Below the pieces are notes generated by a model. It had not been told where the DNA came from. It did not search any database and saw only the letters and a list, made by a program, of their open reading frames with translations. Shown piece by piece: positions 16,821 to 47,159 of a DNA stretch of 64,000 bases; position 1 is the stretch's first letter; each line of letters opens with the position of its first letter. Position numbers and translations under genes: made by a program. The stretch spans positions 124,001-188,000 of the forward strand of contig JAGNKX010000004.1 in NCBI GenBank assembly GCA_017999915.1. The letters are read 5' to 3'. This stretch comes from Spirochaetota bacterium. Lineage in GTDB: Bacteria; Spirochaetota; UBA4802; UBA5550.

Positions 16821-17052
16821 CGAGGAGTATTATTGAAATTTGTTCCAGTTGTAAATTATGGCAAGATTTTATATCAGCAATTAATGCTAAACATTCTCTA
16901 TGATTAATTGTAATAATATCACTTTTATAATAATTATTCTGTAATGCAAAATAATTTGAAAAAGCGTAATAGTCAATAAAAAAACGGGCTGATAGGATTT
17001 TATATTGACAACTTGATAATTTATAAAAAAAAACTATGTATTATAAGTTAAC

Positions 17053-17200
17053 AGTTTGCTGATAAACAGCAAACTGCTAAACGATACATGGATGTATCGC
17101 CTTTTTTCGAGGCATTAGCCGAGAAAAATGTGAGGTTTTACGAATTCACTTCGTAAAACCGACCCTGAAAAACTCCAAGGAGGGAGTTTTTCAGGAAACT
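17053..17200 (+). repeat. 148-bp multi-hairpin repeat, copy A
   Basis: Non-coding element composed of five consecutive hairpins: 10-bp stem 17052-17061/17067-17076; 8-bp stem 17082-17089/17092-17099; a stem with tandem G-A mismatches 17103-17113/17118-17128; perfect 11-bp stem 17134-17144/17150-17160; and perfect 13-bp stem 17164-17176/17183-17195 with AAGGAG in its loop. Its ends are related inverted repeats beginning AGTTT and ending AAACT. The reverse complement occurs at 46992-47139 with about six differences by eye. It lies between the HATPase gene and the 7TM sensor gene. The structure resembles a MITE or REPIN-like element, but the family is not known to me. Confidence 0.9.
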
Positions 17201-17236
17201 GTGAGTTAATTAATAAATACCTATATGATATAACAG

Positions 17237-46915: not shown

Positions 46916-46991
46916 CAGTTTTCAGGGAATTTGTTACATATAATTATTGCTTCATAATAAAATCTATTACTTCCCAAAAAATTATTCTAAG

Positions 46992-47139
46992 AGTTTCCTG
47001 AAAATCTCCCTCCTTGGAGTTTTTCAGGGTCGGTTTTACGAAGTGAATTCGTAAAACCTCACATTTTTCTCGGCTAATGCCTCGAAAAATGGCGATACAT
47101 CCATGTATCGCTTAGCAATTTGCTGTTTTTCAGGAAACT
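46992..47139 (-). repeat. 148-bp multi-hairpin repeat, copy B (inverted)
   Basis: Reverse complement of copy A at 17053-17200, same length and about six base differences by eye. Here the termini are a perfect 13-bp inverted repeat, 46992-47004 and 47127-47139 (AGTTTCCTGAAAA and its complement). The internal hairpins of 11 and 8 bp are conserved exactly; the first and last stems carry mismatches. The four bases CTAA occur just outside both ends. It lies in the gap after the cyclic-nucleotide-binding gene. It contains no ORF. Confidence 0.9.
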
Positions 47140-47159
47140 GCTAAATTTTCGGAATAATT

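Follow-up and report, generated by a model that had tools for sequence, protein, structure and literature searches.

Sponge RNAs that bind CsrA are familiar chiefly as single genes in Gammaproteobacteria. CsrB carries repeats of CAGGA(U/A/C)G in its loops, and the SELEX consensus for CsrA, RUACARGGAUGU, is mostly presented as a six-base loop closed by AC/GU (PMC7652899). Bridging by CsrA has been reported for sites 10–63 nt apart (PMC7652899). In the spirochaetal genus Leptospira, from which csrB and csrC are reported to be absent, CsrA binds GGA hexaloops in gel shifts in vitro (PMC8668096). Pairs of ANGGA hairpins have also been used to predict CsrA binding for two further RNA families, TwoAYGGAY and Bacillaceae-1 (PMC4333381). 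A literature search for work linking CsrA with MITEs found none making that connection.

The element described here occurs twice, as copies A and B, in the window, the 64,000-nucleotide stretch of Spirochaetota DNA that was analysed. It is almost certainly a MITE, that is, a non-autonomous DDE transposon, and the most likely reading of its sequence, with a probability of about two-thirds, is that of a MITE whose transcript binds CsrA. The preliminary description, made from the sequence of the window, had placed the two copies correctly, in opposite orientation and both between genes, and its estimate of about six differences agrees with the 6 mismatches found within 148 bp (9 over 158 bp when the target duplications are included). 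The two copies do have the same length, as it had said, but this is 150 bp and not 148 bp, the true element being one base longer at each end. The chain of five hairpins that it recognized is borne out by folding: as a single strand, copy A with its flanking 4-mers reaches -65.7 kcal/mol, compared with -30.7 +/- 3.6 kcal/mol for dinucleotide shuffles (z = -9.7). Stems of the family consensus measure 14, 7–8, 8+3, 11 and 13 bp for hairpins 1 to 5. Hairpin 1 contains a CTAA that is complementary to TTAG, the usual target duplication, and is thereby lengthened by the left duplication (17048–17051 with 17077–17080 in the window; other copies are alike).

Table. Features of the two MITE copies in the window
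Feature	Position	Strand	Remarks
Left target-site duplication, copy A (TTAA)	17048..17051		Partner is TGAG, a decayed pair
Copy A, 150-bp MITE, hairpin 1 to hairpin 5	17052..17201	+	93–96% identity to most other full-length genome copies
Left terminal inverted repeat, copy A	17052..17067	+	CAGTTTGCTGATAAAC (family: CAGTTTGCTGAAAAAC)
Hairpin 1	17048..17080	+	Near-perfect palindrome of the terminal repeat
Hairpin 2	17081..17100	+	Stem CGATAC/GTATCG, loop AUGGAU (ANGGAN)
Hairpin 3	17101..17130	+	Family CATTTTTC..GAAAAATG; tandem GA internal loop; GGC..GCC
Hairpin 4	17134..17160	+	11-bp stem, strongest compensatory changes
Hairpin 5	17164..17195	+	13-bp stem, loop AAGGAG (ANGGAN)
Right terminal inverted repeat, copy A	17186..17201	+	Reverse complement CAGTTTCCTGAAAAAC
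Right target-site position, copy A (TGAG)	17202..17205		
Target-site duplication, copy B (CTAA)	46987..46990		
Copy B, 150-bp MITE	46991..47140	-	
Second target-site duplication, copy B (CTAA)	47141..47144		Same as the other side, a perfect pair

The two copies belong to a large dispersed family. Sequence searches of the genome that contains the window (G000; 5.46 Mb, 99% complete) found about two dozen copies, 16 of which, A and B included, are full-length 150-bp copies with 89–97% identity. Five more are long copies of 206 bp, where a stretch of about 56 bp containing two additional hairpins takes the place of the foot of hairpin 5. There are also several deletion forms, the smallest being a single palindrome. 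Single-hairpin forms are represented by L100, L108 and L125. The preliminary description had held that a simple local inverted duplication would be left if neither further copies nor compensatory changes could be found; both exist. Such a duplication of one intergenic spacer would fit a window holding two inverted copies 30 kb apart, but it is effectively ruled out by the two dozen genome copies, by the many copies in other genera and families, and by the flanks of copies A and B, which are unrelated. The element is short, has no coding capacity and is present in many copies; a match to phage or plasmid sequence was sought and none was found.

Relatives of the element occur in 20 of 247 sampled Spirochaetota genomes. 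Within the genus, copies are present in G001, G003 and G005, and searches of G002 and G004 returned none. Distant copies keep the order of the hairpins and differ in their terminal repeats: read by eye, those of G111 have GTAAGCTCTGAAAAA with TTAG or TTAA duplications, those of G151 have CAGGCTGCTGAAAAAG, and those of G001, G005, G123, G133 and G158 have GAGYGCRTCCCAAAAC-like ends with TAA-like flanks. Some copies of G001 and G003 (L047, L049 and L121) have a far longer hairpin 4 of about 80 nt (GCGGTAAACACC...) and may represent an earlier and larger version of the element.

Evidence for mobility comes from both ends and target sites. The terminal inverted repeats are 16 bp long (CAGTTTSCTGAAAAAC); intact copies have CAGTTTGCTGAAAAAC at the start and the reverse complement of CAGTTTCCTGAAAAAC at the other end. 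The flanks were compared in 48 copies, 37 with CAGTTTGCTGAAAAAC/CAGTTTCCTGAAAAAC ends and 11 from G151 and G111. The four bases on either side are identical in 30 of the 48, whereas re-paired shuffles gave a mean of 18.1 and none of 20,000 reached 30; the next four bases further out, taken as a control, match in 0 of 37. The duplication is of the YTAR type. It is mostly TTAG, always facing the same way with respect to the element, and matching ATAG/ATAG, CTAG/CTAG, TTAA/TTAA and CTAA pairs also occur. Empty sites are present as well. In the rplU–rpmA spacer (gene names read by eye), G003 carries a short palindromic form that is absent from G000, G001, G004 and G005, and at G000:C15 the stop codon of a gene is the site of a 150-bp copy, where the G005 orthologue (G005:C38) is without the element. 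The preliminary description had offered a MITE and a REPIN-like element as alternatives. Many copies of a short, palindromic, intergenic repeat and the existence of single-hairpin forms are what would be seen in a REP/REPIN-type element that a RAYT (Y1 transposase) mobilizes. However, inverted terminal repeats and 4-bp target duplications are features of DDE transposons and the same ends flank IS5-family genes, which makes a REPIN highly improbable and supports the MITE.

The IS5-family genes were located by scanning one genome per species, 84,980 species in total, with TARCAGTTTSCTGAAAAAC. At least 114 stretches were found, many outside Spirochaetota, and transposases between the same terminal repeats, a partner for which the preliminary description had suggested searching, do exist in other phyla. 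At L158, L162 and L204, facing ends lie 1.27–1.35 kb apart with a transposase between them; the L158 and L204 proteins contain DUF772 and DDE_Tnp_1 and match NCBIfam NF033581 (IS5 family) with 250 bits, well above its cut-off of 140. Relics of such genes persist in the genus: an interrupted transposase adjoining such an end in G002, a 476-bp remnant with both ends in G005 and a fragment adjoining one end in G001. At the right end, the relics of G002 and G005 read CAGTTTCCTGAAAAACTC, the same as in the MITE. One query, a Zixibacteria IS5, found no transposase homologue in G000, and to that extent the genome lacks the same-ended autonomous partner that is usual although not universal for MITEs. 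This partner may have been lost, and its absence weakens the link to a living partner and not the assignment to the MITE class. Because relics with the same ends occur in congeners and no homologue was found in G000, the MITE was probably moved in trans by an element that has since disappeared or is absent from the assembly. An IS5-family DDE transposase would act on the CAGTTTSCTGAAAAAC ends and duplicate a 4-bp YTAR site. The CAGTTTSCTGAAAAAC terminal repeat also bounds many unrelated MITEs of 44–480 bp across phyla (L131–L243: Nitrospira, Alphaproteobacteria, Deltaproteobacteria and others).

The preliminary description had named a structured RNA as a further option. This reading is supported too, by covariation and by loops conserved across the phylum, and the MITE and the structured RNA are one and the same object. 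The five-hairpin structure was examined in 30 copies taken from four genomes, and 93.7% of its cells pair. The compensatory changes that the preliminary description proposed to look for are present: double-sided changes occur in 17 of 56 pairs, compared with 5.5 +/- 1.6 after shuffling and 5–8 in slid controls, and are strongest in hairpin 4. Within one G000 subfamily, by comparison, changed stem pairs are broken in 15 cases, kept by a one-sided change in 16 and compensated in 1. Since covariation is seen across genomes while changes within G000 are mostly uncompensated, it seems that structural selection works in the long term on the source copies rather than on every inserted copy. Hairpin 2 closes with AC..GU and hairpin 5 with CC..GG around ANGGAN, and over the 30 copies the A and the GGA are 92–94% conserved and the N positions 53%. 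Inside G000, bases of the GGA have changed at a neutral-looking rate (4/84, compared with 29/1512 for stems and 7/266 for the remaining loops), which indicates that functional conservation does not extend to most individual copies.

Circularity was controlled for by masking both loops with N, rebuilding the covariance model and searching 393 phylum genomes. The loop-masked model still recovers copies in G151, G006, G214, G133 and G177. When 38 divergent copies were aligned to it, A(N)GGA or CAGGA was found in 25/36 loops of hairpin 2 and 25/35 of hairpin 5, and elsewhere in 3/36 of hairpin 1, 0/35 of hairpin 3 and 2/34 of hairpin 4; these 38 loci were partly gathered with the unmasked model, and the masked-model search of the 393 genomes is the cleaner set. 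Together, these patterns make RNA-level selection on the interior of the element very probable.

The hairpins of a plain IS5-type MITE would matter only as DNA, through templated repair or as cruciforms aiding transposition, and its GGA loops would be incidental. All of the mobility evidence fits this explanation, same-ended MITEs in Nitrospira and Alphaproteobacteria likewise have a pronounced inverted-repeat architecture, and quasi-palindrome correction can maintain perfect palindromes. However, correction at the DNA level acts on stems and cannot explain a fixed A and GGA beside the most variable N positions, nor can it explain why GGA loops are concentrated in hairpins 2 and 5 under the loop-masked model. 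Moreover, MITEs of other phyla with the same ends are mostly without GGA loops (5 of 281 hairpin loops). A role of the hairpins as DNA alone is therefore considered unlikely.

In the structured-RNA MITE favoured here, the likely partner of the RNA is CsrA. The ANGGAN loops of hairpins 2 and 5 correspond to the CsrA/RsmA recognition motif, a pairing missed in the preliminary description, which had compared the AAGGAG of hairpin 5 with a ribosome-binding site; that sequence is real and is better read as an ANGGAN loop. L286 and L315 contain the exact SELEX consensus, GUACAAGGAUGU, and the window copies contain AUACAUGGAUGU, one position away from it. The 206-bp form brings GGACAGGAUGUCC and GCGCAGGAUGCGC, two more hairpins of the CAGGAUG type. 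CsrA itself (PF02599) is encoded in 23 of 23 genomes examined, as a single copy in all six genomes of the genus and in 17 further carriers, and its presence in every genome checked means that it discriminates little. The CsrA of the window's genome keeps the RNA-binding residues Leu4 and Arg44. Two properties count against CsrA: hairpin 5, with its 13-bp stem, exceeds the SELEX winners in stability, and the two GGA loops are about 86 nt apart linearly, beyond the bridging range, though hairpins 3 and 4 fold in between.

The GGA loops might instead serve another partner, for example in ribosome/anti-Shine-Dalgarno interplay in 5ʹ leaders or in RNase III processing of neighbouring transcripts. 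Several copies (L082, L042, L077 and L266) do end 10–25 bases short of a reading frame that has the same orientation, and AAGGAG resembles a ribosome-binding site. Against this, orientation relative to the right-hand (downstream) gene is near even, with no clear bias (33 of 56); the motif has variable N positions; hairpin 2 has the AC..GU closing bases typical of CsrA sites; and hairpin 5 often presents UGGAU or CGGAU, which is not a ribosome-binding sequence. Such a partner is quite unlikely. Several copies sit just before a reading frame, but the same orientation count led to rejection of a strict 5ʹ-leader element as a general rule. Intrinsic terminators were likewise rejected, the pattern hits being consensus matches on hairpins without a proper T-run, and promoters inside or upstream of the element showed no excess over shuffles.

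With CsrA as the partner, the interior of the MITE would be the DNA template of a structured RNA, a hairpin chain with ANGGAN loops in hairpins 2 and 5. A copy transcribed from its own or a neighbouring promoter would be expected to yield an RNA that binds CsrA, and the bound RNA would either be a decoy or make part of a host transcript responsive to CsrA. Transcription of the element, its binding by CsrA and its effects on CsrA activity or neighbouring genes are predictions from sequence.

A second dispersed repeat of about 105 nt, dissimilar to the MITE, is found in G000, G001, G003, G004 and G005 (L010:2229–2337, minus strand; L385–L401 and L403); BLAST did not find it in the window, and it has no Rfam match. 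A long outer stem, highly variable in sequence but paired, encloses two ACA(N)GGA hairpins that are invariant, with double changes in 11 of 29 pairs among 18 aligned copies. Unless they have an RNA partner in common, it is difficult to see why two unlike dispersed families of one genome should share this paired motif. A module with two hairpins of the CAGGAUG/CAGGACG type makes the 206-bp MITE form (L070, L023, L025, L026, L111 and L112), and at L403 (101–249) a copy of the second repeat is interrupted by an insertion resembling this module. GGA-hairpin modules look as if they were moving on their own.

A broader interpretation, put forward tentatively, is that Spirochaetota carry selfish elements that spread decoy or regulatory CsrA sites. 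Their payload would be selected in the moving source copies and decay neutrally after insertion, and TD-2 RNA (see below) and the second repeat would be related or convergent. Titration of CsrA would perhaps favour transposition or host expression of the element. If so, the phylum would have a multi-locus, mobile counterpart of CsrB: a transposon with paired CsrA-type sites would place dozens of these around the genome, in an arrangement changing with each transposition. This would tie a class of mobile elements to a global regulator and suggest a function for TD-2 RNA.

Among described families, the nearest in Rfam is TD-2 RNA (RF03162, clan CL00124; classed by Rfam as a small RNA), a similarity missed in the preliminary description. 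No Rfam family matches the element at the gathering threshold; the TD-2 scores of the window copy (30.8 bits) and a G151 copy (41.3 bits) are both below the gathering score of 48.7. TD-2 is likewise a hairpin chain with two ANGGAN hairpins and a GGA-free hairpin between them, its last hairpin has the arms CTGAAAA..TTTTCAG, and it occurs in many copies per genome in one spirochaete family. Unlike the element, the TD-2 copies examined are without hairpin 1, and no terminal repeats or target duplications are apparent by eye. Given these absences and the scores below threshold, TD-2 is treated as the nearest described relative and not as the family itself. TD-2 copies L316 and L320 lie in tandem or close clusters in spirochaete family f24.

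TwoAYGGAY (RF01731) and Bacillaceae-1 (RF01690) share two ANGGA hexaloop hairpins and are predicted CsrA ligands, but they belong to other taxa and are not described as mobile (PMC4333381); neither is matched by the element in Rfam. Like CsrB, CsrC and RsmX/Y/Z, the element has repeated hairpins with (C/A)(N)GGA loops, at least two of them, and its long form contains CAGGAUG repeats like those of CsrB (motif from PMC7652899). Unlike those RNAs, it has two to four sites and not many, it is transposable rather than a single-locus gene, and its transcript and CsrA binding are predicted. REP/REPIN and other bacterial palindromic repeats resemble it in their dozens of intergenic palindromic copies, but its ends and target duplications are of the DDE type. 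With IS5-family MITEs, it shares the lack of a reading frame, short terminal inverted repeats in common with an IS5-family element, 4-bp YTAR duplications and many intergenic copies. It differs from them in its conserved, RNA-like interior of several hairpins with selected loops, a fold that Spirochaetota genomes share even when their copies have different terminal repeats.
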